In this document: positions 3,625 through 17,319 of the stretch, piece after piece
Layout of the letters: each line of letters opens with the position of its first letter
Position numbering within the stretch: position 1 is the stretch's first letter
NCBI RefSeq assembly: GCF_000183745.1
Contig: NC_014761.1
Coordinates: forward strand, 2,046,001-2,110,000
Direction: 5' to 3'
DNA: 64,000 nucleotides
Source: Oceanithermus profundus DSM 14977
GTDB lineage: Bacteria; Deinococcota; Deinococci; Deinococcales; Marinithermaceae
Position numbers and translations under genes: made by a program
The notes under the pieces: generated by a model
The model's database searches: none
What the model was told of the DNA's origin: nothing
Seen by the model: the letters and a program-made list of their open reading frames with translations, nothing else

Positions 3625-4509
3625 ATGAAACAGATTGCCGAGAAACCGGCGTTCAAGATCAATGGATTCGCCATGCTGCTGGTGGTCCTCGCGCTGCTCG
3701 TCTTCAGCGGCTGGGAGGGCTGGCGCTTCTTCGCCGAGATCACCCTGCGCACGAACTGGGGCGCCCTCGCGTGGAGCACGCTCGCCCTGATCGCCTTCTT
3801 CCTCCTCGTACCCGGATTCTTCACCGTCCAGCCCAACCGGGCCAAGGTGCTCATCTTCTTCGGCAAGTACACCGGGAGCGTGCGCGACGACGGCTTCTGG
3901 TGGGCCAACCCCTTCACCGGCAAGGTGGCCGTCAGCCTGCGGGTGCGCAACTTTAACTCCGACGTGCTCAAGGTCAACGACAAGCACGGCAACCCCATCG
4001 AGATCGGCACCGTGGTGGTCTGGCAGGTGGTGGACACGGCCAAGGCCGTCTTCGACGTGGACGACTACGAGGAGTTCGTCCGGGTGCAGGTCGAGACGGC
4101 CATCCGGGCGCTGGCGAGCCGCTACCCTTACGACGCCGAGGAGCACGAGCTCTCGTTGCGCGGCAGCCCCGACGCGGTGGCCCAGGCCCTCACCGACGAG
4201 GTGCAGGAACGGCTCAAGGTGGCCGGGGTGAAGGTGCTCGAAGCCCGCATCAGCCACCTCGCCTACGCGCCGGAGATCGCCCAGGCGATGCTGCGGCGCC
4301 AGCAAGCGCAGGCCATCATCTCGGCGCGCCGCCTCATCGTGGACGCGGCGGTGGGGATGGTGCAGCAGGCGCTCGAGCACCTGGAGCGCCAAAACGTGGT
4401 CGCGCTCGACGAAGAAAAGAAGGCCGCCATGGTCAACAACCTGATGGTGGTGCTGACCGGCGACCAGTCGGCGAGTCCGGTGATTAATACCGGAACCCTT
4501 TACGGTTAA
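3625..4509 (+). CDS. SPFH/Band 7 domain membrane protein
   Basis: 294 residues. Two membrane helices (about residues 12-30 and 41-60) are followed by a prohibitin-homology domain starting PGFFTVQPNRAKVLIFFGKY and containing LRVRNFNS, TVVVWQVVDT and the late block HLAYAPEIAQAMLRRQQAQA. SPFH proteins scaffold membrane microdomains and often pair with membrane proteases. The ATG at 3625 is chosen because AGGAGG (3614-3619) sits 5 nt upstream; an in-frame GTG at 3619 overlaps that ribosome site. It heads a same-strand cluster with an Arc-type repressor, a PH-domain protein and a CPBP protease; a repeat element separates it from the second gene. Confidence 0.85.
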   Translation: MKQIAEKPAFKINGFAMLLVVLALLVFSGWEGWRFFAEITLRTNWGALAWSTLALIAFFLLVPGFFTVQPNRAKVLIFFGKYTGSVRDDGFWWANPFTGKVAVSLRVRNFNSDVLKVNDKHGNPIEIGTVVVWQVVDTAKAVFDVDDYEEFVRVQVETAIRALASRYPYDAEEHELSLRGSPDAVAQALTDEVQERLKVAGVKVLEARISHLAYAPEIAQAMLRRQQAQAIISARRLIVDAAVGMVQQALEHLERQNVVALDEEKKAAMVNNLMVVLTGDQSASPVINTGTLYG

Positions 4510-4520
4510 GCAGGAGGTAA

Positions 4521-4653
4521 GGGTGTGGGAGGTAGGAGGTAGGAAGCCCGTGCAGATTTCTTACGTAACCACTTGCGCATTACCCCGGAAGCAACGAGCT
4601 AAGAAGCTGCGATGAGGATGCCGCTTCCTACACCCCACCCACATCCCACATCC
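4521..4653. repeat. G-rich inverted-repeat element, copy A
   Basis: Left arm starts GGGTGTGGGAGGTAGGAGGT (4521-4540) and runs to GGAAGC at 4547. The right arm (4623-4653) begins GCTTCCTAC and ends with two overlapping CCCACATCC units. About 75 bp of unrelated sequence lies between. The arms share the inner GTAGGAAGC/GCTTCCTAC and outer GTGGG/CCCAC parts but differ in the middle. It carries no gene. The right end is 5 nt before the ATG of the Arc-type gene. Confidence 0.7.
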
Positions 4654-4658
4654 CAACT

Positions 4659-4841
4659 ATGAAAAAACGCTTCCTCCTCCGCCTCGATCCCAAGGTGTAC
4701 GATGCCCTCGCCAAGTGGGCGGCCGACGACCTGCGCAGCGTCAACGCCCAGATCGAGTACCTGCTCACCAAGGCGCTGAAGGAGGCGGGCCGCCTTCCGC
4801 GGGAGGAGGAACGCAAGGAGACGCAAGGTGGAGACGTTTGA
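4659..4841 (+). CDS. Arc-type ribbon-helix-helix DNA-binding protein
   Basis: 60 residues. The N-terminal strand [20 protein letters not shown] and helices with [15 protein letters not shown] match the Arc/MetJ ribbon-helix-helix fold, with the RFLLRL strand for major-groove contact; such proteins act as dimers. Genes like this are often placed beside SPFH genes. No Shine-Dalgarno is present: the 20 nt before the ATG are the pyrimidine-rich right arm of repeat copy A. Initiation therefore may depend on coupling, a leaderless transcript or an upstream loading site. It overlaps the next gene by 14 nt. Confidence 0.78.
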
Positions 4842-5349
4842 CCCCGACCTCGACACCGCCGGACGCCCGTTGCGCGCCGCCGGCCTGCTTCTCATGGGGG
4901 CCGCCCTGGCCTACTACGCCTACGGCACGGCTGCGGGGCTGCCGCTGGCACGGGCGCTGGTGGCGCTTTGGGTCTTTCTGATCGTGGCCGTCTTCGTGGG
5001 GCTCTTGTGGTGGATGCCGGCGCGGCTGCGGTACGCGCTGTCGGACGAGGCCCTGGAAATCCAGCACTTTCTGGGCCGCCGCCGCATTCAGCTCGAAAAC
5101 CTGCGCGAGGTCCACGAAGTCACCTTCGCGCTGGGCCGCCGCAGCGGCAGCGCCGCGTTGCCGGGGTACTACGTGGGGCGGTTCCAGAGCAACCTGGGCC
5201 GCGTCACCGCCTACACCGGACGCGCCGCGGGCGAGGGGCTCCTGCTCGTGCTCCACACCGGCGAGCAGGTGCTGCTCGCCCCCAAGCGGGCCGGTCTGAT
5301 GCGGACGCGGCTGCAGCGCGCAACCCGCGAAGGCGCCGAGGAGGCCTAA
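4828..5349 (+). CDS. Membrane protein with bacterial PH-like domain
   Basis: 173 residues. Two adjacent hydrophobic segments (about residues 17-34 and 42-61) are followed by a beta-rich region with [12 protein letters not shown], the block [19 protein letters not shown] and [13 protein letters not shown], a pattern found in bacterial PH domains (bPH_5 type). Function unknown. GTG start at 4828 with AAGGAG at 4815-4820; it overlaps the repressor gene and is 1 nt from the protease gene, indicating one transcript. Confidence 0.7.
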
Positions 5350-5350
5350 G

Positions 5351-6220
5351 GTGAACCAAGCCGACCGAGCCGTAACCCTGACCATCGTCCTCAGCTGGCT
5401 TTTGTTCGCGGTCTACTACGTGGAGGTGGGCACGCTCTCGAGCCCCTGGTTCCTGGGGTTCAGCCTGGTCTACATGTGGATTCCGGGCATCGTCGCCCTG
5501 GTGCTGGCGCGGCGGGAGGGGCTGCGCCTGCAGATCTGGAGCCGACCGAACCGCTGGTGGTTGCTCGCCCTTCTGCTGCCGGTGCTGTTTGCCCTCGCCA
5601 GCATCGTCGCCAGCCTCCCCCTCGACACCTACGTGGGCCTCGCCCAGGTCCGCGAGGCCATCGCCGCGCGCACCGGGGCCGAAGGGGCGGGCCTGCCCGA
5701 GTGGGCCCTGTGGACGGCGCTGATCGTCCAGGGGCTGCTGGCGGGCGCGACGATCAACCTGCTCTTTGCGCTGGGCGAGGAGCTGATGTGGCGCGGCTAC
5801 CTCTGGGAGCGCACGCGCGAGCTCGGCTTCTGGCCCGCGTCGCTCTACATCGGCGTCGTCTGGGGCGCGTGGCACGCCCCGCTCGTCTACTTCCTGGGCT
5901 ACAACTACCCCGAGCACCGCTTCCTGGGGGTCTTCTTCATGGTGGTCTTCACGGTATTGCTTACCCCCTGGATGCTCTACCTGCGTGAAAAGGGCGGGGC
6001 GGTCGCGGTGCCGGCCCTATTCCACGGCACCCTCAACGCCGTGGCCGGGCTGCCCCTCCTCGTCTTCGCAGGCAGCGCCGATCCGCTGGCCCGCACGAAC
6101 GACCTCCTGGTGGGCCTCACCGGCCTGGGCGGGTTCGTGGTGCTGGCGCTTTCGAACCTGTACCTGCGGCGGCTGCGCCCGCCCGAGCGGCCCCTTGAAG
6201 ACGAATCCCGGCCGTCCTAA
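5351..6220 (+). CDS. CPBP-family intramembrane metalloprotease
   Basis: 289 residues with about seven membrane helices. The CPBP/Abi motifs are all present: EELMWRG (EExxxR), a tract with WGAWHAPLVY (second motif His) and LFHGTLNA (HxxxN). These residues bind the metal in the membrane, as in Rce1-like proteases. GTG start follows the PH-domain gene by 1 nt. Association with SPFH, PH and Arc genes suggests a membrane quality-control or signalling module; substrate unknown. Confidence 0.85.
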   Translation: MNQADRAVTLTIVLSWLLFAVYYVEVGTLSSPWFLGFSLVYMWIPGIVALVLARREGLRLQIWSRPNRWWLLALLLPVLFALASIVASLPLDTYVGLAQVREAIAARTGAEGAGLPEWALWTALIVQGLLAGATINLLFALGEELMWRGYLWERTRELGFWPASLYIGVVWGAWHAPLVYFLGYNYPEHRFLGVFFMVVFTVLLTPWMLYLREKGGAVAVPALFHGTLNAVAGLPLLVFAGSADPLARTNDLLVGLTGLGGFVVLALSNLYLRRLRPPERPLEDESRPS

Positions 6221-6239
6221 GCTGAAGGTGGAGGTCGCG

Positions 6240-6764
6240 GTGAAAGCGGGTGCGGCGCGTTCTTGGACGCTGCTTCTGGTGTGCCTGGGCGCGGTGCTCG
6301 CGCTTGCGGTCCGGGGGCAACCCGCGGACGTCCCCTGGCCCGTGGACGTCGCGCAAACCCAGGTGGGCTACGGCTTCCGCTTCGACCAAAGCGTGCCGCG
6401 CTGGCAGGTGTTCTACCCGGTCCACGACAGCCTGCGCGCTCTGGCCCTGCACGTGGGCGTCGTCGGGGACCCGGGGAAGCTGATCGTGGAGATCCGCGAT
6501 GCGGAAGACGCGGTTCTGGTCCGGTTCGTGCGCGCCGTACGCGCGAGCGGCTGGGTCTACCTCCCCTTCGACGCCCCGCTGCGGGTCCATCCCGGCCGGC
6601 CCTACCGCATCTACGTCTACGCGGACCGCCCCTCCCCCAACCCCAAGCAGCGCTTCTTCTGGAGCGGGGCCTTCGTGCCCGATTTCTGCCCGCCGTGCAC
6701 GACGGACGTCTCCGGCGGCCGCCCCGGCTTCCGCTACGCCTTCGTCGTCTACGCTTCCCGCTGA
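6240..6764 (+). CDS. Exported protein of unknown function
   Basis: 174 residues. An N-terminal signal peptide (basic start, then a hydrophobic run TLLLVCLGAVLALAV and a small-residue region) is followed by a beta-rich domain with YGFRFDQSV, WVYLPFDAPL and PYRIYVYAD, resembling a jelly-roll. Two close cysteines (CPPC) occur near residue 153. GTG at 6240 is chosen for the GGAGGT ribosome site a few bases upstream. No family recognised. It may be the last gene of the SPFH cluster. Confidence 0.65.
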   Translation: MKAGAARSWTLLLVCLGAVLALAVRGQPADVPWPVDVAQTQVGYGFRFDQSVPRWQVFYPVHDSLRALALHVGVVGDPGKLIVEIRDAEDAVLVRFVRAVRASGWVYLPFDAPLRVHPGRPYRIYVYADRPSPNPKQRFFWSGAFVPDFCPPCTTDVSGGRPGFRYAFVVYASR

Positions 6765-6770
6765 GCCCGC

Positions 6771-6800
6771 TTGCCCGGCGGCCGTGGGCGCGGTTATAGT
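6771..6800 (+). promoter_or_regulatory. trp operon promoter
   Basis: TTGCCC (6771-6776), an 18-bp spacer and TATAGT (6795-6800) form the promoter. The predicted transcription start, about 7 nt after the -10, coincides with or just precedes the trpL ATG at 6808, so the leader peptide mRNA is probably leaderless. Confidence 0.65.
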
Positions 6801-6807
6801 GAGCGCA

Positions 6808-6849
6808 ATGAAGCGCTTCGCCGTTCGCTTCTGGTGGTGGCCCGGTTAA
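6808..6849 (+). CDS. trpL: trp operon leader peptide (13 residues, three consecutive Trp codons)
   Basis: The frame MKRFAVRFWWWPG ends at TAA 6847-6849. Three tandem TGG codons (6832-6840) sit immediately before alternative RNA stems and a terminator upstream of trpE, the layout of ribosome-mediated attenuation: scarce charged tRNA-Trp stalls the ribosome on the TGG run and favours the antiterminator. There is no Shine-Dalgarno; the -10 box ends 7 nt before the ATG, so initiation is likely on a leaderless 5' end. Confidence 0.88.
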   Translation: MKRFAVRFWWWPG

Positions 6850-6911
6850 CCCCGGGGCGGACGGCGTTTGCTTGATTCCCGGGGTGCGGCACGCCGGGAG
6901 TTTTTCTTTTT
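6850..6911 (+). terminator. trp attenuator (antiterminator/terminator)
   Basis: The terminator stem is 6877-6899: TCCCGG pairs with CCGGGA, extended by GT/AC after one G-G mismatch, followed by the T-rich tract TTTTTCTTTTT (6901-6911). The preceding CCCCGGGG (6850-6857) can pair with CCCGGGG (6878-6884), giving an antiterminator, and CCCGG (6841-6845, just after the Trp codons) can in turn pair with that segment. The set explains how translation of the leader could switch trpE on or off. Confidence 0.8.
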
Positions 6912-6928
6912 AGGAAGGGGAAACGACG

Positions 6929-8332
6929 ATGAAGACGAAACCCGTGGTCAAGACCCTGCTCGCCGACCTGGAAACGCCGGTGACCGCCTACCTCAAGCTC
7001 GCCGAAAAAGCGCCGGTGAGCTTCTTGCTCGAATCGGTGGAGGCGGGCAAGCGCTGGAGCCGCTACTCGATCATCGGCGTGGGGGCGCGCAGGACCTTCC
7101 GGCTGGCCGGCGGCGTCTTCACCATCGACGGCACCGAGGTGGAGGCCGCAGACCCGCTGGCCACCCTGTACGGAGCGGTCCACCGCGAGGTGGAAAACGG
7201 CCACGAGCTGCCGCCGTTCTGGGGCGGCGCGGTGGGTTACGTGGCCTACGACCTGGTGCGCCACTACGAAGAACTGCCCGACGAGAACCCCGACGAGATC
7301 GGCGCGCCCGACCTGCTCTTCGTCGAGCCCGAGCTCGTCGTCGTCTTCGACCACTTCAAGCAGGTGCTGCACCTGGTGGCCCCGGCGCTGGGCGACGGCC
7401 CCTCGGCCACCGCCCGCGCCCGGGAGCTGCTGGACGCCGCCGAGCGCCGGCTGCGGGGGCCGCTGCCGGGCGTGCCGGGCGGGCGCGGCGGGCGCCGGAC
7501 CGCGTTCAGCGCCAACCTGAGCCCGGAAGACTACGCCCGCATCGTGGAAAAGAGCAAGGCGTACATCCGCGCCGGCGACATCTTCCAGGTGGTGCCCTCG
7601 GTGCGCTTCTCGGCCGAGCTGGGCGTGCACCCCTTCGCCCTCTACCGGGCGCTCCGGAGCGTCAACCCCAGCCCCTACATGGGTTACCTGGACCTGGGCG
7701 AGGTGACGCTGGTCTCTGCCAGCCCCGAGAGCCTGCTGCGCGCCAGCGGCCGCACCGTGACCACGCGGCCCATCGCCGGCACCCGGCCGCGCGGCAAGAC
7801 GCCCGAGGAGGACCGCGCGCTCGCCGAGGAGCTGCTGGCCGACGAGAAGGAGCGCGCCGAACACGTGATGCTGGTGGACCTGAGCCGCAACGACATCGGC
7901 CGGGTGGCCAAGCACGGCAGCGTCAAGGTGGACGAGCTGATGGTGGTGGAGCACTACTCGCACGTCATGCACATCGTCAGCACCGTGACCGGGGAGCTGA
8001 AGGAGGACAAGACGCCGCTCGACGCGCTGGCCAGCGTGATCCCCATGGGCACGGTCAGCGGCGCGCCCAAGATCCGGGCGATGGAGATCATCGACGAGCT
8101 CGAGCCCACCCGCCGCGGCCCCTACGGCGGCGCCTTCGGCTACATCGCCTACGACGGCGCCATGGACGTGGCGCTGACGCTGCGCACCTTCGTGATCGCG
8201 GGCGGCCAGGTACACGTCCAGGCCGGCGCCGGCGTGGTGGCCGACAGCGACCCCGAGCGCGAGTACCAGGAGTGCGTGAACAAGGCGAAGGCGCTCATGC
8301 GGGCGGTGGAGCTGGCGGAGCAGGGGTTGTAG
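6929..8332 (+). CDS. trpE: Anthranilate synthase component I
   Basis: 467 residues; converts chorismate to anthranilate with ammonia from TrpG. The N-terminal LLES (33-36) is the tryptophan feedback site. The chorismate-binding domain carries PIAGTRPRGKTPEED, LVDLSRNDIGRV, GTVSGAPKIRAMEII and GYIAYDGAMDVALTLRTFV, with the final QAGAGVVADSDPE block. Length is normal for the family. AAGGGG precedes the ATG. It is controlled by the trpL attenuator and followed after 8 nt by repeat element copy B, which splits it from trpG. Confidence 0.96.
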   Translation: MKTKPVVKTLLADLETPVTAYLKLAEKAPVSFLLESVEAGKRWSRYSIIGVGARRTFRLAGGVFTIDGTEVEAADPLATLYGAVHREVENGHELPPFWGGAVGYVAYDLVRHYEELPDENPDEIGAPDLLFVEPELVVVFDHFKQVLHLVAPALGDGPSATARARELLDAAERRLRGPLPGVPGGRGGRRTAFSANLSPEDYARIVEKSKAYIRAGDIFQVVPSVRFSAELGVHPFALYRALRSVNPSPYMGYLDLGEVTLVSASPESLLRASGRTVTTRPIAGTRPRGKTPEEDRALAEELLADEKERAEHVMLVDLSRNDIGRVAKHGSVKVDELMVVEHYSHVMHIVSTVTGELKEDKTPLDALASVIPMGTVSGAPKIRAMEIIDELEPTRRGPYGGAFGYIAYDGAMDVALTLRTFVIAGGQVHVQAGAGVVADSDPEREYQECVNKAKALMRAVELAEQGL

Positions 8333-8340
8333 CCCGCGCA

Positions 8341-8839
8341 GGATGTGGGAGGTAGGAGGTGGGTTATGGGAACACCGTCTAACAACCGCGGAGATGAACA
8401 CACGGCCGGCCTGAGCGTGGGGAATCTGGAAATCTGGTCCGAAGCCATGGACGCCGTGGAGCTGGCCTACGCCTTGACCCAAACCTGGCCTGAAGCCGAA
8501 AAATACGGCCTGACCTCGCAAACCCGGCGTGCAGTCGTTTCCATTCCCGCCAACCTTGCCGAGGGAGCGGGTAGGGGAACTCGAAAAGAAAAGTCGCGCT
8601 ACGGCCGGATCGCCCTCGGCTCGCTTTACGAGCTCGATACCCTGTTGCAAATCGCAGTGAGGTTAGGTTTCGCAAACCCCGAGGAGACTGCTGGTTTGCG
8701 CGCCGACCTTGCCAGATTGGCAAAGAGACTGAACGCCTACATCCGCCATCAGGAGGAACAAAAATGAGCCAATCGAATAAACCCACCTCCCACCTCCCAC
8801 CTCCTACCTCCCACCCCCCACTCCCCACCCCCCACATCC
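8341..8839. mobile_element. G-rich inverted-repeat element, copy B, carrying a four-helix-bundle gene
   Basis: A 499-bp unit between trpE and trpG. The ends are a perfect 9-bp inverted repeat, GGATGTGGG (8341-8349) and CCCACATCC (8831-8839). Inside them the left arm continues AGGTAGGAGGTGGGTTA and the right arm is TAAACCCACCTCC followed by further CCCACC/CTACC units, so the right arm is longer by extra units. The only gene inside is the four-helix-bundle protein. No transposase and no obvious target-site duplication are seen. The right arm is translated as the start of trpG. Mobility is inferred from the multiple copies, not demonstrated. Confidence 0.65.
8366..8767 (+). CDS. Four-helix-bundle protein, 23S rRNA intervening-sequence protein family
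   Basis: 133 residues, from LEIWSEAMDAVELAY through YGLTSQTRRAVVSIPANLAE and GAGRGTRKEKSRYGRIA to SLYELDTLLQIAVRLG: the conserved signature of the S23/IVP family, whose first members were encoded in intervening sequences of 23S rRNA and whose fold is shared with the Avd accessory protein of diversity-generating retroelements. Biochemical role unknown; RNA binding is suspected for the family. The ATG at 8366 is preceded by AGGAGGT (8354-8360) lying wholly inside the left repeat arm. An in-frame GTG at 8345, also in the arm, would add seven residues. Its TGA overlaps the trpG ATG. Confidence 0.85.
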   Translation: MGTPSNNRGDEHTAGLSVGNLEIWSEAMDAVELAYALTQTWPEAEKYGLTSQTRRAVVSIPANLAEGAGRGTRKEKSRYGRIALGSLYELDTLLQIAVRLGFANPEETAGLRADLARLAKRLNAYIRHQEEQK

Positions 8840-9441
8840 TCCTCGTCGACAACTACGACTCCTTCACCTACAACCTTGCCGACTACCTGGGCCAGCTGGG
8901 GGCGCGGCTGACCGTCTGGCGCAACGACAAGTTCCGGCTCGAGGACGTGGACAGGCTGGCTCCCGACGCCGTGGTCATCTCGCCGGGGCCGGGCACGCCC
9001 GAAGAGGCCGGCCTCTCGATCCCGCTCGTCAAGGAGTACGCCCCCAGGTTGCCCATCCTCGGCGTCTGCCTGGGCCACCAGGCCATCGGCGCCGCCTTCG
9101 GCGCCAAGGTGGTGCCGGCTCCGCGCATCATGCACGGCAAGACCAGCCCCATCGAACACTCGGGTCAGGGCATCTTCATGGGCCTGCCCAACCCCCTCAC
9201 CGCCACCCGCTACCACTCGCTCGTGATCGACGAGCTGCCGGGCAAGCTGGAGGTGCTGGCCTGGACGCCCGAAGAGGGGCAGCAGACCGTGCAGGCGGTG
9301 CGGCACGTGCGCTTTCCCACGGTCGGCGTGCAGTTCCACCCCGAGAGCATCCTTACCGAGCTGGGGCTGCAGCTTCTGGTCAACTGGCTCGGCGAGGTCG
9401 GGCTCTACTGGAAGACCCACCCACGGGAGGAGGAGCGATGA
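8764..9441 (+). CDS. trpG: Anthranilate synthase component II (glutamine amidotransferase) with repeat-encoded N-terminal extension
   Basis: 225 residues. The class I glutaminase domain starts ILLVDNYDSFTYN and has the catalytic triad Cys102 (GVCLGHQ), His192 and Glu194 (FHPES). It hydrolyses glutamine to supply ammonia to TrpE. Orthologues start almost at the ILLVDNYDS strand; here 24 extra residues rich in Pro, Ser, Thr and His precede it, and those from residue 6 on are encoded by the right arm of repeat copy B. The only start with a ribosome site (AGGAGG, 8751-8756) is the ATG at 8764, which overlaps the four-helix-bundle stop, so the native start appears to have been replaced by the insertion. 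Confidence 0.93.
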   Translation: MSQSNKPTSHLPPPTSHPPLPTPHILLVDNYDSFTYNLADYLGQLGARLTVWRNDKFRLEDVDRLAPDAVVISPGPGTPEEAGLSIPLVKEYAPRLPILGVCLGHQAIGAAFGAKVVPAPRIMHGKTSPIEHSGQGIFMGLPNPLTATRYHSLVIDELPGKLEVLAWTPEEGQQTVQAVRHVRFPTVGVQFHPESILTELGLQLLVNWLGEVGLYWKTHPREEER

Positions 9442-10442
9442 ACACGTTGCACAAGGTGCTGGACGGCAAGCCGATGACCCAGGACGAGGCCCGGGCGCTG
9501 ATGGAGCGGATGATGGCCGGCGAGCTGAGCCCGGTGCAGACGGCGGCGCTGCTGGCGGCGCTCAAGGTGCGCGGGGAGACGCCCGACGAGATCGCCGGCT
9601 TCGCCCACGCCATGCGCGAAGCGGCTCGGCCGGTGCGGGTGGCCGGCGAGCTGATGGACGTGGTGGGGACCGGCGGCGACGGCGCCGGCACCTTCAACAT
9701 CTCGACCACCGTCGCCTTCGTGCTGGCGGCGGCCGGCCTCAAGGTCGCCAAGCACGGCAACCGGGCGGCGAGTTCGCGTAGCGGCTCGGCCGACCTGCTC
9801 GAGGCCCTCGGGGTCAACATCGAGCTGGAGCCGGAGCGGGTGGCCCGGGTGATCGAAGAGGTGGGCATCGGCTTCCTCTTCGCCCGCACCCACCACCCGG
9901 CCATGCGCCACGTCGCCCCGGTGCGGGCCGAACTGAAGACCCGGACCGTCTTCAACGTCCTGGGGCCGCTCACCAACCCGGCGCGGGCGCAGTACTTCCT
10001 GCTCGGCGTCTACAGTCCGGAGCTGCTCGAGCCCATGGCCTACGCCCTAAGCGAGCTTGGCGCCCTGGGGGCCTGGGTGGTCCACTCGCGCGGCACCGAC
10101 GAGCTGACACTGGGGGAAAACGAGGTGGTGGAGCTGAGGAACGGCCGCCTGCGGCGCTTCACCTTCCGCGCCGCCGACTACGGGCTGGAGGAGGCCCCGC
10201 TCGCGGCCCTGGCCGGGGGCGCGCCGGAGGAGAACGCCGCGCTCACCCGCCGCATCCTCGCGGGCGAGGAACGGGGCCCAAAGCGGGACGTGGTGGCGCT
10301 CAACGCCGCGGCCGGCCTGGTGGCTGCGGGCCGGGCGGACAGCCTGGAAGAGGGGCTCGAGGCCGCGGGGCGGATCCTCGACGAGGGGGAGGCCGCCCGG
10401 GTGCTCGAGCGGCTGGTGGAGGCCACGCGCGCCCACGAATAG
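9438..10442 (+). CDS. trpD: Anthranilate phosphoribosyltransferase
   Basis: 334 residues; transfers phosphoribose from PRPP to anthranilate. Motifs include DVVGTGGDGAGTFNISTT (PRPP loop), KHGNRAASSRSGSADLLEALG, a block around HHPAMRHVAPVRAELKTRT with the anthranilate-channel residues, and NVLGPLTNPA. The ATG overlaps the trpG stop (ATGA), so the two are translationally coupled. The operon ends at a strong hairpin just after the stop codon. Confidence 0.96.
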   Translation: MNTLHKVLDGKPMTQDEARALMERMMAGELSPVQTAALLAALKVRGETPDEIAGFAHAMREAARPVRVAGELMDVVGTGGDGAGTFNISTTVAFVLAAAGLKVAKHGNRAASSRSGSADLLEALGVNIELEPERVARVIEEVGIGFLFARTHHPAMRHVAPVRAELKTRTVFNVLGPLTNPARAQYFLLGVYSPELLEPMAYALSELGALGAWVVHSRGTDELTLGENEVVELRNGRLRRFTFRAADYGLEEAPLAALAGGAPEENAALTRRILAGEERGPKRDVVALNAAAGLVAAGRADSLEEGLEAAGRILDEGEAARVLERLVEATRAHE

Positions 10443-10464
10443 GCCGCCCGGTTCCCCGGGCGGC
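10443..10464. terminator. Bidirectional hairpin between trpD and the lipoprotein gene
   Basis: Perfect 9-bp stem GCCGCCCGG-TTCC-CCGGGCGGC between convergent genes. There is no clear T-tract, as with several GC-rich stems in this window. Confidence 0.6.
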
Positions 10465-10488
10465 GCGGAGGTCCGGCGGCGCCAAAGG

Positions 10489-11379
10489 TCAGCCGTTCGG
10501 GACGCAGATCGTGTTGCCGCCCGCCGTGATGCAGACCTGTGTGGGCGTCCACGTCACGTCGAACGTGACGCTGGTCCCGTCGCAGTCGGTGCCCGTGTAG
10601 GTGGCGCTGCCGCCGTCGATCATTCCGCCGTTGAAGTGCACGCCGCTCAGCGTCGCCTGCAGGCTCCAGCCCGTGCAGGCGGGACCGCTGCCGCTGAAGT
10701 CGCCGGAGGCGTTCAGGGTGCCGTTGCCCCAGGGGTCGGTCGCGGTGTCGGGCGCCCAGGTACCGCTGAGGTTGTAATCGAAGGCGTAATTATCGGTGTC
10801 GTTGACGACGATCCTCCAGTTGCCCACGTAGGTGAAGCCGTAACCGCCGCTCTGCTTGACGAAGTCGTGCTGGGTGAGGGTCCAGGTCCAGGTCAGGGAC
10901 TGCCCCCCGCCGCTGTAGCCCCACTCGACGACGCCGTTCACCTTGATGCCCGCCGCGGGGTCGGCGTCGTCGGGGTCCTGAACCTTGAGGTTCCGGTACT
11001 CCCAGTAGCCGCTGAACGACCCCTCGGTGCCGCTGTAGCTCCAGCTGCAGCGGCCGTCGTAGGTGGCGTTCACCGGGATGCCGTCACCGTCGGTGTCGGT
11101 GAGGGTGCCCGTCACCGTTACGGAGCCGCAGTCCCAGCTCGCCACGTCCAGCGGCGCCGTCCCCGAGGAGAAGGGCAGCAGCAACAGGGGTACGGGGATG
11201 CCCACGCGCCCCAAGGGCGCCGATACGTCGTAGAGCTGTTCGTTGGCGGTGCTCAAGGTCCCGGCCACCTCGCGCGGATCGATGGAGGAGGTCCCCCCTC
11301 CACCGCTCGGAGCCTGGGTTCCGCAAGCCGCCAACAGCACCGTCAGGACCGCGCCAACGAAGATCCACCGCTTCTTCAT
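10489..11379 (-). CDS. Predicted lipoprotein of unknown function
   Basis: 296 residues. A type II signal peptide ends in the lipobox LLAAC (Cys19), followed by a Gly/Ser-rich linker. The rest is rich in Thr, Gly, Trp and Asp with alternating strands (SVTVTGTLTDTDGDGIP, SLTWTWTLTQHDF), suggesting a beta-sandwich or barrel-like fold and a possible calcium-binding DTDGDG stretch. No family recognised. GAGGAGGTG precedes the ATG. Convergent to trpD. Confidence 0.75.
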   Translation of the reverse strand: MKKRWIFVGAVLTVLLAACGTQAPSGGGGTSSIDPREVAGTLSTANEQLYDVSAPLGRVGIPVPLLLLPFSSGTAPLDVASWDCGSVTVTGTLTDTDGDGIPVNATYDGRCSWSYSGTEGSFSGYWEYRNLKVQDPDDADPAAGIKVNGVVEWGYSGGGQSLTWTWTLTQHDFVKQSGGYGFTYVGNWRIVVNDTDNYAFDYNLSGTWAPDTATDPWGNGTLNASGDFSGSGPACTGWSLQATLSGVHFNGGMIDGGSATYTGTDCDGTSVTFDVTWTPTQVCITAGGNTICVPNG

Positions 11380-11528
11380 CGCTTCACCTCCTCCGCTGTT
11401 CGATCCGGATCGGCGCGCGACGGAAGCACGGATGCGCAGGATGTTCGCTGTTCACTCCAATTTTATCACTCCCCGGAAGCGAACCCCATGGGGCCCGCCC
11501 TTCCGCGGTCCTGGAATAGACTGGACCC

Positions 11529-12035
11529 ATGCGACCCCTGGTCTTCGTACTGCTCCTCGGCCTGCCCGCCCTGGCCCAGACCCACGTCTTCCACACGCCC
11601 ATCCCCATGGACCGGGTGCAGGGCGTCTTCGCCATGCAGGGGGCGGGCGCGCTCGACTTCGGCCTCGATCCCGCCGCCCGCGCGGGCGGCTTCCTGGACC
11701 TCTGGGCCTACCGCGGCCGTTTCGCGATGAGCGCGGTTTCGGTGTCGAGCCCCATCCCGGCCGCGGGCCTGTGCTACACCGCGGCCCTCGACTACCTGGG
11801 CTGGACCCTGGTGAACGAAACGACCTACCGCATCCGCTACGGCGCCGGCGGCGGGGCCCAGCTCTGCCGGTTGCGCGACGTCCACGGAACGGAGCTCCGC
11901 CAATTCCGGCCGCTGGTCGAGGGCGTGGCGAGCCTGCAGTACCGGGTCTTCCCCAACGTGGTGGGCGACGTCAGCCTGAGCGCGGGCTGGCCCGAAGGGC
12001 TGGGCGCGGCGGTGGCCTTCGGCTTCGCCTTCTGA
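11529..12035 (+). CDS. Small exported protein of unknown function
   Basis: 168 residues with a signal peptide (RPLVFVLLLGLPALAQ) and a mature part that is beta-rich, ending in LGAAVAFGFAF, an aromatic C terminus like that of outer-membrane barrels. Two cysteines (about residues 79 and 116) may form a disulphide. TAGACT (11517-11522) lies 6 nt before the ATG with no Shine-Dalgarno, a leaderless arrangement. Confidence 0.65.
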   Translation: MRPLVFVLLLGLPALAQTHVFHTPIPMDRVQGVFAMQGAGALDFGLDPAARAGGFLDLWAYRGRFAMSAVSVSSPIPAAGLCYTAALDYLGWTLVNETTYRIRYGAGGGAQLCRLRDVHGTELRQFRPLVEGVASLQYRVFPNVVGDVSLSAGWPEGLGAAVAFGFAF

Positions 12036-12102
12036 GTGGACGGGTTCCCGACAAACGGGCTTTGCATTGCTAAAGAATTGCGTGGCTCACTGCGTCCTCA
12101 TG

Positions 12103-12131
12103 TCGACGGAATCGCGCCCGGGTGGTATAAT
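12103..12131 (+). promoter_or_regulatory. gyrB promoter
   Basis: A consensus TATAAT (12126-12131) is preceded at 17 bp by TCGACG (12103-12108), 4 of 6 matches to the -35. This predicts a leader of about 40 nt before the gyrB ATG. A TTGACA at 12156-12161 has no matching -10 and is probably incidental. Nothing else is seen in the 143-bp gap. Confidence 0.6.
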
Positions 12132-12142
12132 GAAACGAGTGA

Positions 12143-14092
<1,950 letters not shown>

Positions 14093-14093
14093 T

Positions 14094-14182
14094 TGGTACG
14101 TGGTGCGTGGTTCGCAGTACGTCGTAGGGGCGGGCCCGTGGGCCCGCCCAATCAGTACTTAGTTCGTGGTGCGCAGTTCTTG
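14094..14182. repeat. G/T-rich repeat pair flanking a GGGCGGGCCC hairpin
   Basis: Two similar G/T-rich blocks (TGGTACGTGGTGCGTGGTTC near 14094 and TTCGTGGTGCGCAGTTCTTG near 14163) flank the perfect inverted repeat GGGCGGGCCC-GT-GGGCCCGCCC (about 14128-14149). A variant hairpin recurs at 14944-14969. It looks like dispersed repeat material and also lies where a gyrB terminator would be expected. Confidence 0.5.
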
Positions 14183-14280
14183 GTAACTGCATCGCCTGTA
14201 GCGGGTAGCCCGTGGCCTCTGGTGGTCCTTCAACGACAACGAAACGTCGGCTTATCGCGCAGCATGGACCCCTGCTTTCG

Positions 14281-14319
14281 CGGGAGCCTGCCCTGAATCA
14301 AGTTCAGGGCAGGCTCCCG
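14281..14319. repeat. 17-bp perfect inverted repeat (REP-like hairpin)
   Basis: CGGGAGCCTGCCCTGAA (14281-14297) and TTCAGGGCAGGCTCCCG (14303-14319) form a perfect stem with a 5-nt loop. No T-tract follows, so it is more likely a palindromic repeat than a terminator. Confidence 0.6.
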
Positions 14320-14368
14320 GATCTCCCTCGGCCATCAGGCTCGGTCGTCCGGGGATACAGGAAAGGCA

Positions 14369-14493
14369 GGATGTAGGGGGTGGGATGTGGGAGGTGGGGC
14401 TTGTTTTTCAGAAGCACACGAACGGGCTTGGGCGCGACGCATCAGAACACGATGTTGGGTTTTCCTACCACCTACCCCCTACACCCCACATCC
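14369..14493. repeat. G-rich inverted-repeat element, copy C (gene-less)
   Basis: The left arm GGATGTAGGGGGTGGGATGT continues GGGAGGTGGGG to 14399; the right arm 14464-14493 begins CCTACCACCTACCCCCTACA and ends ACATCC. The ends GGATGT/ACATCC match copy B. The 64-bp centre has no coding capacity, making this a short, non-autonomous-looking copy. Confidence 0.65.
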
Positions 14494-14547
14494 CGGCGAA
14501 GCCGACCCATCGGGCCCATGCGCGTCATTGCTCCACGGTTTGGTTGC

Positions 14548-14589
14548 CGCGAAATAATACTCCCTCCCCTGGGGTGGGGGTTGTTGGTG
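14548..14589. repeat. Direct repeat, first copy (CCGCGAAATAA family)
   Basis: GCCGCGAAATAATACTCCCT followed by a CCCCTGGGGTGGGGG hairpin and TTGTTGG matches the sequence at 14811-14859 in order and orientation. It is a small dispersed repeat present twice within 310 bp. Confidence 0.55.
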
Positions 14590-14628
14590 ATGCTTGGGCC
14601 AAAAGCTGGTCGCTGGTGCATGGCCGGC

Positions 14629-14643
14629 CCACACCCCACATCC
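14629..14643. repeat. Solo right arm of the G-rich element family
   Basis: CCCACACCCCACATCC is the right-end signature of copies A-C without a partner arm nearby, a probable remnant. Confidence 0.45.
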
Positions 14644-14660
14644 AGCATTCCAGCAAACAA

Positions 14661-14704
14661 CCCCCCTCTGGCGGCTACGCCGCCATCTCCCCCAAGGGGG
14701 AGGC
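14661..14704. repeat. Double-hairpin repeat
   Basis: GGCGGC-TAC-GCCGCC is followed by CTCCCCC-AA-GGGGGAG. The arrangement resembles widespread dispersed repeats in bacterial intergenic regions; no T-tract. Confidence 0.5.
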
Positions 14705-14757
14705 TTTAAGGTCGGCCGTCAAACAAACCGCAGCGTTCACCATGCTTTAAGCTCTGG

Positions 14758-14798
14758 ATTCCAGCTCGCGCAGGCCAAGGGCCCGCTTGGCTGGAATG
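14758..14798. repeat. Nested palindromic repeat
   Basis: ATTCCAGC pairs with GCTGGAAT, enclosing CCAAG-GGCCCG-CTTGG. The ATTCCAGC...GCTGGAATGAC form is a common REP-like unit. Confidence 0.5.
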
Positions 14799-14810
14799 AC
14801 GAATTACTCG

Positions 14811-14859
14811 CCGCGAAATAAACCTCCCCCCTGGTGAGGGCCCGGGGAGGGGTTGTGGG
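14811..14859. repeat. Direct repeat, second copy (CCGCGAAATAA family)
   Basis: GCCGCGAAATAAACCTCCCC, then a CCTCCCC...GGGGAGG stem and GGTTGTGGG; second copy of the element at 14548-14589. Confidence 0.55.
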
Positions 14860-14943
14860 CGCTGACCGGGTCCAGCGTTCGACGCCGGTTCGTGGCCTGC
14901 CCCTGAGGAAGCGGGCGTTGCGCCGTATCCCCGACGTACCTGT

Positions 14944-14969
14944 GGGGCGGGCCTATGTGTCCGCCCGAA
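14944..14969. repeat. GGGGCGGGCC hairpin repeat
   Basis: GGGGCGGGCC-TATGTG-TCCGCCCG resembles the stem at 14128-14149. Just downstream TACAAT (14994-14999) is a candidate -10 for the formate dehydrogenase genes. Confidence 0.4.
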
Positions 14970-15032
14970 CGGTACGGAGGCAACTTCTTCGCATACAATG
15001 GACCCAAAGCACGACCGAAGGGACGGTGCTCC

Positions 15033-16571
15033 GTGGACTCAGCCCCTCTGCTGCTTCCCCTGCTCGACGCGGCGCTCGCGGCCCGCGGCCACCTCGAGCC
15101 CGCCGACGTCGAGGCCGCCGCGCGCGAGGCGCGCGTGCCCCTGGCTCAGGCCTGGGAGGCGGTGCGCTTCTACCCCCGTTACCGCACCGAACCCCCCGAG
15201 AAGCGCTTCCTGCTGGTGGACGACCCGGTGGTCCGCGGCCGCGACTTCGCCCGGCTCTGGGCCGAACTTGAGGACGCCGCGCCGCGCGCCGAGGCGCGCG
15301 CCGGCACGGTCTACAGCCAGGGGCTCGAGGCCGTGGGTCCGGCGCTGGTGATCGAGGAGCGGGCCCGCTGGCGCGTCTTCGCCCCGGTGCAGGTCGCCGA
15401 CCTGCGGGCGCTGGCCGTGGGCAAGCTGCCCCCGCACGAGCTGGAGGCCCTGCCCGCCGAGCTGGCCCGCGCAGGCGGAGTCCTCTTCGAGCCGCCCGAC
15501 CCGCTCCCCGAGTTTCCCGGCGCCGACGCCCTCATCGGCGCGGTGCGCGAGGCCGGCCTGCGGGGGCTGGGCGGCGCGCTCTTCCCCACCGCGCGCAAGC
15601 TCGAGGCCGTGCGCGCCGAGGCCGCAGACGCGAAGTACGTGGTCGTCAACGGCGACGAGTCCGAGCCCGGGAACTTCAAGGACCGCTGGCTGATGGAGCA
15701 CAACCCCCGCCTCGTCTGGGCGGGGGCGGCGCTGGCGGCGCGGGCGGTGGGCGCGGGCGAGATCGTCTTCTACGTCCGCGGCGAGTACGCCGCGGCGCAC
15801 GCGCGCGTGGAGGCGGCGCGGGCGGAGCTGGAGGCGTCGGGCTATTTCGAAGGGCTGAAAACGCAGACCTTCCGCGGCGGCGGGCTCTACATCTGCGGCG
15901 AGGAGAGCGCCCTGCTCGAAAGCATCGAGGGCCGCCGCGCCGAGCCCCGGCTCAAGCCGCCCTACCCGGCCCAGGCGGGCCTGTTCGGCCGGCCCACGCT
16001 GGTGAACAACGTGGAGACGCTGGCGCACCTGGCCTGGATCGCCGCCCACGGCGCGGAGGCCTACCGCGCGCGGCGGCCCAAGCTGTTCTCGATCTCGGGC
16101 GACGTGGCCCGGCCCGGGGTCTACGAGCTGCCGCTGGGCACGCCGCTCGCCGGCGCTCTGGAGGCGGCCGGGGGCGCGCCGGAAGACCTGCAGGCGGTGC
16201 TGATGGGCGGGGCCGCGGGAACCTTTTTGCGCCTGCCCGACGCCGCCGAACTGCCGCTCGACTTCGAAGCCCCGCGGCTCTCGGGCGACGCGGTGGGGCC
16301 GGGGGCGCTGGTGGCCTTCGGTGGGGGCCGCGACCTCTGGGCGGTGGCCGAGGGCATCGCCGCCTTCTTCGCCCACGAGTCGTGCGGCAAGTGCTTCTCC
16401 TGCAGCCTGGGCACGCCCCACCTGCACGCGGCCGTGGCCCGGCGCGAACGGGGCCCGCAGCTGGAGGAGCTCTTTCTGGCGCTCGAGCAGGGCAGCCTCT
16501 GCGGCCTGGGGCAGGCCGCCCCCTGGGCGGTACGCAGCCTGATCCGGCGCTTCGAGGGGGTGAGGTCGTGA
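15033..16571 (+). CDS. NuoF-like flavoprotein subunit of formate dehydrogenase
   Basis: 512 residues. A NuoE-like N-terminal part (about 1-140) precedes a NuoF module: the FMN/NADH region GLRGLGGALFPTARKLE, VVNGDESEPGNFKDRWLME and GGGLYICGEESALLESIEG, an SLBB region (FSISGDVARPGVYELPLG) and a C-terminal 4Fe-4S motif ESCGKCFSCSLG with a further Cys in GSLCGLG. It probably passes electrons between NAD(H) and the Fe-S subunit. The N-terminal part has no cysteine at all before the NuoF module, so the usual [2Fe-2S] cluster of NuoE is absent. GTG at 15033 chosen; an upstream ATG would add 26 repeat-derived residues. Confidence 0.85.
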   Translation: MDSAPLLLPLLDAALAARGHLEPADVEAAAREARVPLAQAWEAVRFYPRYRTEPPEKRFLLVDDPVVRGRDFARLWAELEDAAPRAEARAGTVYSQGLEAVGPALVIEERARWRVFAPVQVADLRALAVGKLPPHELEALPAELARAGGVLFEPPDPLPEFPGADALIGAVREAGLRGLGGALFPTARKLEAVRAEAADAKYVVVNGDESEPGNFKDRWLMEHNPRLVWAGAALAARAVGAGEIVFYVRGEYAAAHARVEAARAELEASGYFEGLKTQTFRGGGLYICGEESALLESIEGRRAEPRLKPPYPAQAGLFGRPTLVNNVETLAHLAWIAAHGAEAYRARRPKLFSISGDVARPGVYELPLGTPLAGALEAAGGAPEDLQAVLMGGAAGTFLRLPDAAELPLDFEAPRLSGDAVGPGALVAFGGGRDLWAVAEGIAAFFAHESCGKCFSCSLGTPHLHAAVARRERGPQLEELFLALEQGSLCGLGQAAPWAVRSLIRRFEGVRS

Positions 16572-17221
16572 GCAAGGTACCGCTCGTCGTCGACGGTTAC
16601 CTGGTCCAGGCCGAGCCGGGCGAGACGCTGCTCGACGCGGCGCGCCGCGCCGGGGTGGAGGTGCCCACGCTCTGCCATCACGAGCGCACCGGCACCCGCG
16701 GCCTTTGCCGGCTCTGCGTCGTCGAGGTGGAGGGCTGGGGGCGGCCGGTGCCCGCCTGCGCCACCGAGGTGCAACCGAACCTGGTGGTGCGCACCGAGAC
16801 CGAGGCGCTCGCCGCGTTGCGGCGGGTGGTGCTCGAGCTGCTGGCGCTCGAGACCGACCTGAGCCACGACGCGGGCACCCAGGCCCTGCTCGAGCGCTAC
16901 GCGGCGCATCCCGAGCGCTGGGGCGCCCCCCTGGCCGGCCGGCGCGAACGCGAACCCGTGCAGGACAACCCCTTCTTCGTGCGCGACTATGCCAAGTGCT
17001 ACACCTGCCGGCGATGCATCGACGCCTGCGGAGAGGGCGTCCAGGGCGTCTGGGCCTACAGCACGACCGGCCGCGGCCACGCCGCGGTTCCCGGCACCCC
17101 GCTGGACCTGCCGCTGCCCGCGACCCCCTGCGTCTTCTGCGGCAACTGCGTGCAGGTCTGCCCGACGGGGGCGTTGGTGCCGTTATCGGAACTCACCCTT
17201 GCCGAAGGAGGGGCGCCATGA
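16568..17221 (+). CDS. Iron-sulfur subunit of formate dehydrogenase ([2Fe-2S] plus two [4Fe-4S])
   Basis: 217 residues. An N-terminal plant-type ferredoxin domain has Cys36, Cys47, Cys50 and Cys64. After a helical linker, two 4Fe-4S sites follow: Cys144/147/150/154 and Cys188/191/194/198 (CVFCGNCVQVCP). In many formate dehydrogenases this module is fused to the N terminus of the catalytic chain; here it is a separate gene. The GTG start overlaps the stop of the NuoF-like gene (GTGA). AAGGAGG near its 3' end drives the short frame that follows. Confidence 0.88.
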   Translation: MSKVPLVVDGYLVQAEPGETLLDAARRAGVEVPTLCHHERTGTRGLCRLCVVEVEGWGRPVPACATEVQPNLVVRTETEALAALRRVVLELLALETDLSHDAGTQALLERYAAHPERWGAPLAGRREREPVQDNPFFVRDYAKCYTCRRCIDACGEGVQGVWAYSTTGRGHAAVPGTPLDLPLPATPCVFCGNCVQVCPTGALVPLSELTLAEGGAP

Positions 17222-17319
17222 AACTTCGCGCATTCAGGTTGTGGGAGGTAGGAGGTAGGAAGTGGGAAGACCCACGCCCCACACCCCACCCCCCACTTCC
17301 TGCCGGGAGGCACCCATGA
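17218..17319 (+). CDS. Short coupling frame of 33 codons created by repeat copy D
   Basis: ATG at 17218 overlaps the stop of the Fe-S subunit (ATGA) and has AAGGAGG upstream; its own TGA (17317-17319) overlaps the ATG of the catalytic gene. Codons 9-29 are read straight through the repeat arms, giving WEVGG...KWED then a Pro/His-rich stretch. The peptide has no recognisable function. A plausible role is to carry ribosomes across the insertion so that the catalytic gene stays translationally coupled. Confidence 0.5.
   Translation: MKLRAFRLWEVGGRKWEDPRPTPHPPLPAGRHP
17241..17303. repeat. G-rich inverted-repeat element, copy D (compact)
   Basis: GTGGGAGGTAGGAGGTAGGA (17241-17260) continues to GTGGG at 17266. 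After 4 nt the opposite arm CCCACGCCCCACACCCCACC runs on to CCCACTTCCTGC at 17303. AGGAAGTGGG (17257-17266) and CCCACTTCCT (17292-17301) are a perfect 10-bp inverted repeat. The GGATGT/ACATCC ends of copies B and C are lacking, and almost no centre remains. Confidence 0.65.

Follow-up and report, generated by a model that had tools for sequence, protein, structure and literature searches.

The described systems closest to the sequence reported here are the REP/REPIN-RAYT pairs and the intervening sequences (IVSs) of 23S rRNA genes. In REP/REPIN-RAYT systems, a single-copy gene lies between inverted repeats and many dispersed, gene-less, hairpin-forming copies are found between genes; every repeat class belongs to a particular gene lineage, and singlets are probable remnants (PMC3116915). 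The IVSs that carry an S23p open reading frame (ORF) hold it between complementary sequences and are regarded as selfish elements (PMC4990558). In a classical transposon/MITE pair, a transposase is expected in the gene-bearing copy, and the Avd protein of diversity-generating retroelements (DGRs) is an accessory protein of a reverse transcriptase system. Heptamer repeats have been described separately. Rehm et al. reported the heptamer GGGAATC, with 70–75 inverted pairs per Xanthomonas genome and no association with mobile elements (PMC4692102). Other descriptions concern G-rich repeats in Nostoc (PMC4692102), TAACTGA repeats in Beggiatoaceae (PMC4679880), and a genome-wide heptamer periodicity (PMC6344855). 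In the accessible parts of these three papers (PMC4692102, PMC4679880, and PMC6344855), no gene is linked to the heptamer repeats. In the full-text literature, heptamer repeats and S23 proteins are described apart from each other and we found no paper that joins them; subscription papers and preprints lie mostly outside this literature, and an earlier description is possible.

The candidate element studied here, hereafter the S23 element, shares with REP/REPIN-RAYT systems each of the features named above. The comparison of its layout with such pairs in an initial annotation of this DNA was apt. Gene-less inverted pairs are dispersed and match the flanks of the S23 gene itself, and the exchange of whole units likewise follows the REP/RAYT pattern. 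Unlike those systems, however, the S23 element has no Y1/HUH transposase, its protein being a four-helix bundle without known catalytic residues, and its arms are not a REP palindrome but arrays of 7–9-bp tandem units, with a unit that varies by element. As in the IVSs, an ORF of the same protein family lies between complementary sequences, but the S23 element is located between protein genes in operons and not in rRNA helices, and it has tandem heptamer arms, dispersed gene-less copies, and a mismatch pattern that does not support pairing in the sense RNA.

A gene-bearing copy between trpE and trpG

The window, by which we mean the whole 64,000-base stretch that was analysed, was annotated as containing four paired copies of a G-rich inverted repeat and a lone arm, and all five were found in their places. 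The gene-bearing element (copy B) occupies positions 8341–8839, and copies A, C, and D are gene-less palindromes. The left arm of copy B (8341–8363, plus strand) begins 8 bp past the stop codon of the upstream host gene trpE (6929–8332, plus strand), which it abuts, and comprises about three heptamer units, GGATGTG GGAGGTA GGAGGTG. It is followed by a gene for a four-helix bundle of the S23/IVP family (PF05635/TIGR02436; 8366–8767, plus strand) with an ATG at 8366; an alternative GTG start at 8345, within the left arm, is possible. The right arm (8784–8839, minus strand) contains seven to eight heptamer units as the reverse complement, CCCACCTCCCACCTCC...CACATCC, and when read in frame it is the N-terminus of TrpG. 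The downstream host gene trpG (8764–9441, plus strand) has its start at 8764, overlapping the S23 stop codon, and its product carries a heptamer-encoded N-terminal extension, MSQSNKPTSHLPPPTSHPPLPTPH-ILLVDNYD.

Copy A (4521–4653) lies downstream of an ORF that ends at 4509 and has a left arm at about 4524–4545, a loop of about 85 bp, and a right arm at about 4630–4653. Copy C (14369–14494), with a loop of about 70 bp, has a near-identical counterpart at locus L184 (genome position 1520774) and belongs with others to a family of about 150 bp with the flanks CCGGGGATAC...CGGCGAAGCC. It is adjoined by two short arrays of a second heptamer class, GTGCGTG/GTACGTA (14094–14189, plus strand). Copy D (17241–17303) has a loop of about 13 bp and lies between two operon genes, and the lone right arm CCCACACCCCACATCC (14629–14643, minus strand) is probably a remnant. 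With up to three mismatches, GTGGGAGGTAGGAGGT matched the window at 12 positions, whereas shuffled sequences averaged 0.52 matches and never exceeded 4. In each arm, an imperfect heptamer of the approximate form RGGRDGT is repeated in tandem, with the left and right arms facing in opposite directions. Because of this structure, the GGATGT/ACATCC ends that the initial annotation had noted in copies B and C, although present in both, are ordinary units of the array, and their interpretation as special termini was rejected. The observation that only copy B holds a gene extends to the whole genome, in which the gene of copy B is the sole PF05635 gene.

Crystal structures of S23/IVP proteins have been available since 2006, and to our knowledge these proteins have no known function. 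The assignment of the copy B gene to this family was borne out by the match of its ORF to PF05635 (E = 9e-32; 110 bits, cut-off 34) and to TIGR02436, and the predicted fold agrees. An AlphaFold2 model of the protein (pLDDT 94.9) was compared with solved structures using Foldseek, and the closest fold was XCC0516 (2gsc; TM 0.92), with BT_0352 (2rld) also matched. The model further matched the Avd protein of DGRs (4dwl, 8ub7; TM about 0.77–0.79), with TM values of 0.74–0.79 when the complex of Avd with the DGR reverse transcriptase is included; the fold corresponds to a subunit of the DGR Avd pentamer. The S23 protein and Avd thus have the same fold (TM about 0.79), but the S23 element differs from a DGR: no template or variable repeats and no reverse transcriptase were seen, and the NCBIfam Avd model scored 15.9 bits, below its cut-off of 80. 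No reverse transcriptase was found next to the S23 gene, either in the window or in those plasmid loci whose annotation was inspected. The profile searches showed only PF05635 in the gene-bearing copy, with no transposase or other enzyme domain; the element therefore has no known transposase, as first proposed, in contrast to the classical transposon/MITE pair. PADLOC models of anti-phage defence gave no match. An rRNA location was not found either, since copy B lies between trpE and trpG and Rfam had no match within 4000–19000.

Repeat units and S23 genes across genomes

In the genome of the window (two contigs, 2,439,291 bases), the RGGRDGT-type heptamer, or class 1, had 171 two-unit matches, against 29 for a reversed-pattern control. 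The expectation that the arms would be frequent elsewhere in the genome was thus confirmed, and the window is not exceptional, because the matches are spread throughout. Two further classes, GYYTGTR and GTDCGTR, are present in the same genome. Among the 20 genome regions inspected, the gene-less copies had arms of about two to four units, with loop lengths from a few bp up to about 85 bp, and they often lay directly behind a stop codon within an operon, for example between the genes for homocitrate synthase and homoaconitase (HCS-HACN) or between LysW and LysX. Several of them had homologous loops of about 66 bp and were members of the 150-bp repeat mentioned above, as would be expected if they had been copied as units. 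Empty counterparts of this repeat were sought within the same genome and none was found.

The class 1 count varies widely within the genus, from 171 in the genome of the window (G000) to 22 in G003. In G007 (one contig, without an S23 gene), classes 2 and 3 are absent and class 1 is at background level. In G005, many heptamers are present and no S23 gene was found in an assembly that is 85% complete, and in G001 and G002 the resident element's class is outnumbered by another. In de novo searches for period-7 arrays in 200-kb samples of Deinococcota genomes, three per group, the densities were 2, 1, and 0 in S23-negative genomes and 10, 5, and 0 in S23-positive genomes, a difference in the expected direction, though from samples of low statistical power. 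Separately, two near-identical stretches of the window's genome (L186 and L188; G000:C2 1989700–1990450 and 2226950–2227700) each carry a heptamer palindrome, and to judge from the sequence these palindromes look as if they adjoin rRNA operon sequence. As a further side observation, DUF559 (PF04480) endonuclease-like genes at L078 (minus strand, 17242–17620) and L128 (11656–12100) are bounded by CTCCCC..GGGGAG(G) palindromes, and the genome of the window has scattered repeats of a similar kind, CTCCCTCCCCTTGGGGAGGG, one of them near 14560. A gene and a palindrome may thus be paired a second time, independently of S23; such a pairing was also sought in viral contigs, where nothing was found.

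The initial annotation had asked whether four-helix-bundle genes are regularly bounded by such arms. We collected 80 PF05635 loci from many phyla, with one genome per species, choosing them by the protein alone. The mean lag-7 self-similarity in the 220-bp flanks of the S23 genes was 15.2, compared with 4.5 for control segments taken from those contigs; there was no excess at lags 3–6 and 10–13, a weaker excess at lag 8, and little at lag 9. When the left flank was compared with the reverse complement of the right flank, the score was at least 15 in 59% of the S23 loci, but in only 0.4% of mismatched locus pairs and 0.9% of random places. Of 75 S23 genes, 42 were bounded by ungapped inverted arms scoring at least 15, whereas the control set of 771 other ORFs contained 4 such cases, so the answer is affirmative over many phyla. 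In a census at a set threshold, 35 of the 80 loci had both arms, 28 had one, and 17 had none, the last two groups being a point against mobility at the threshold used. The period was 7 in 75 arms, 8 in 20, and 9 in three. The association was replicated in independent IMG/VR contigs, in which lag-7 arrays occurred in 62% of flanks versus 6%, without a comparable excess at other lags. Chance or base composition as the source of the repeats was rejected on the basis of the shuffles, lag controls, mismatched pairs, and control ORFs.

The repeat unit is specific to the element and the genome, and it predicts the dispersed family of that genome. Arm 16-mers recurred elsewhere in their own contig at 111 places, as against 16 expected from the arms of other loci. 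The unit of the S23 arms is GGGAATC in L070 and L103, exactly the Xanthomonas heptamer given in PMC4692102, and GGGAGTC in L092. Two consecutive GGGARTC units (GGGARTCGGGARTC) had 108, 211, and 152 matches in three Xanthomonadaceae and 131 in Phormidium, compared with 0–1 in each of 22 other genomes; the inspected S23 copy (L069) of the third Xanthomonadaceae genome, Luteimonas cucumeris, has other arms. Similarly, two consecutive GTGAATH units were most numerous in the three genomes that have that unit in their S23 arms. Where one genome has two or more S23 copies, the units differ between the copies. Across phyla, the similarity of S23 proteins predicts the similarity of units weakly (Mantel r = 0.13, p = 0.001). 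The initial annotation had not recognised that the G-rich sequence of the window is only one of many unit classes, nor that each S23 gene goes with a particular class.

A search of plasmid records with the S23 protein gave 24 matches, mostly in cyanobacteria, and inverted arrays were present in all seven plasmid loci inspected with their flanks (Nostoc, Calothrix, Trichormus, Picosynechococcus, and Pseudanabaena). Two Calothrix plasmids have an element in common, but it lies inside a 3.6-kb homologous block and thus gives no insertion boundary. A phage as the vehicle was rejected, as the S23 protein matched no phage record. In one contig assigned to an archaeon (L072, a Methanophagales MAG), an S23 gene is accompanied by a TAGGGAA left array; if this is not contamination, the element crosses domains.

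The elements lie in sense orientation at stop codons. Where a left arm had a sense ORF upstream, it started within 15 bp of the stop codon in 34 of 47 cases, and both neighbours were in sense relative to S23 in 54 loci and both antisense in one. This strong bias towards the sense orientation, whether it arises at insertion or by retention, suggests that the host transcript also serves the S23 gene, which we consider probable. A further antisense case comes from a Nostoc plasmid (L246), where the genes for two ribonucleotide reductase subunits enclose an S23 element whose arms have the unit GGGAGTA.

Replacement and empty sites at operon junctions

The trpE-trpG junction holds an S23 gene in nine Thermaceae, with three heptamer classes. 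Within the genus of the window, the S23 proteins are 88–94% identical where the class is the same, but 48–54% identical where it differs, while the corresponding TrpG proteins are 91–97% identical. In a second genus, the S23 identity is 82% within the same class and 48–62% between classes, with 87–93% for TrpG. As S23 has diverged by class while TrpG is conserved, the gene and its arms have been exchanged together at one site. Empty trpE-trpG sites, which the initial annotation had called for in relatives, were found in G007 and G013. Other junctions are also empty in some genomes: LysW-LysX and HCS-HACN in G007, and the start of LeuD in G006, G007, and G012. At these three junctions, the heptamer class varies by species; for LeuD, a lone right arm (L185, 3442–3475, and its orthologues L190–L197) encodes the N-terminus of the protein, likewise with a species-dependent class. 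At the fadA site of Bacteroidota, the divergence of S23 tracks that of its neighbour while the unit changes, with both arms staying alike; here the gene looks vertically inherited, and arms can therefore also turn over in place. No target-site duplication was recognisable at the compared junctions, although the divergence of the relatives might conceal one, and no insertion was observed as an event.

The proposed element and its alternatives

We consider it probable, though with considerable doubt, that the S23 element is a mobile or replicating unit with arms of its own repeat unit and with gene-less derivatives, on which the S23 protein and host enzymes act. It consists of two inverted arrays of 7–9-bp tandem repeats around an S23/IVP gene and sits in operons behind a stop codon and nearly always in sense, and each S23 lineage goes with its own unit. 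The gene-less palindromes, of which the genome has dozens, would be non-autonomous derivatives, and lone arrays would be remnants. In the mechanism that we hold most likely, a pentameric, Avd-like S23 protein would recognise the array of its own unit or a hairpin formed by the array. The element encodes no transposase, and the protein would rely on the replication or repair machinery of the host to have DNA between arms copied into intercistronic sites and to have one element replaced by another at hot spots. The sequence comparisons show directly that genes and inverted arms go together, that the unit is specific to element and genome, that the repeats are dispersed, that some sites are empty, that gene and arms are replaced jointly, and that the elements lie in sense at stop codons. 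From these comparisons, we infer that the elements move, that the S23 protein has a role in this movement and binds the repeats, that movement occurs in trans, and that host enzymes are used. Points against this reading are the loci with one arm or none, the heptamers of G005 and the outnumbered resident classes of G001 and G002, the turnover of arms in place at fadA, the weak correlation of protein and unit across phyla, and the lack of an observed insertion or target-site duplication.

The position of the palindromes between operon genes, right behind stop codons, would also suit regulatory sites in attenuation, mRNA stability, or translational coupling, with S23 as a binding regulator and mobility not being primary. 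Regulation was considered for the TAACTGA arrays by MacGregor (2015; PMC4679880). In Xanthomonas, conservation of the sites between species is the rule, and 83% of the repeats have identical locations in two species (PMC4692102); movement, if any, is therefore slow. However, the unequal class 1 copy numbers within one genus, the sites that are empty in relatives, the change of unit class by species at one junction, and the homologous loops of some gene-less copies, as expected of copied units, make a regulatory explanation unlikely. We regard as quite improbable an IVS-type RNA element, whose arms would base-pair in the RNA and so provide a stem for RNase III cleavage, with the S23 gene carried along or assisting. 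It agrees with the nearly constant sense orientation within operons and with the presence of the S23 family in rRNA IVSs, which complementary sequences enclose and RNase III cleaves (PMC4990558). The arm mismatches, however, were G-U-compatible in 37 cases and A-C in 78 (p = 2e-4) in the strict version of the test, an excess driven by A/G and without C/T bias, so that our claim is limited to a lack of support for a sense-RNA stem; a lenient version was noisy. Moreover, an RNA stem needs no tandem heptamer structure, and gene-less copies are numerous.

The structural resemblance to Avd and to its complex with the DGR reverse transcriptase, together with the homology of PF05635 and Avd noted previously (PMC10053308), raises the thought of a retroelement-like system. 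Here S23 would, like Avd, assist a reverse transcriptase as its cofactor, the enzyme would act in trans, and repeated short templating would produce the tandem units. A short unit that is homogeneous in both arms and yet changes between species would fit this mechanism, but the loci named above have no reverse transcriptase next to the S23 gene, and we hold this explanation to be very doubtful. Finally, heptamer simple sequence repeats are common in bacteria and slippage has been proposed for them (quoted in PMC4679880), and S23 genes might merely have settled among slippage-born arrays. We strongly disfavour this idea, which is hard to reconcile with matched inverted arms around S23 genes and almost never around other genes, with two S23 copies of different units in one genome, and with the joint replacement of gene and arm class.

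Returning to the S23 element as a mobile unit, we lean slightly towards a broader view, in which S23 elements form a phylum-wide class of bacterial mobile DNA in their own right, one that lacks a transposase, with an Avd-like pentamer acting on its own 7–9-bp unit, and in which most unexplained intergenic heptamer tandem repeats are their arms, gene-less copies, and remnants. Such elements could explain the abundance of 7-base repeats between bacterial genes. The heptamer repeats and the function of S23 would then have one testable answer, with every S23 gene predicting the repeat family of its genome. If this is true, many operon junctions, some N-termini (TrpG and LeuD), and perhaps some "CRISPR-linked" S23 genes would be products of one kind of element. 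In cyanobacterial plasmids, S23 elements were found between cas10 and cmr3 and between cas6 and cas4 (L248 and L249), and a survey of CRISPR-linked proteins lists a "23S rRNA IVP" (PMC10910872), an entry that such cas-adjoining insertions may account for.
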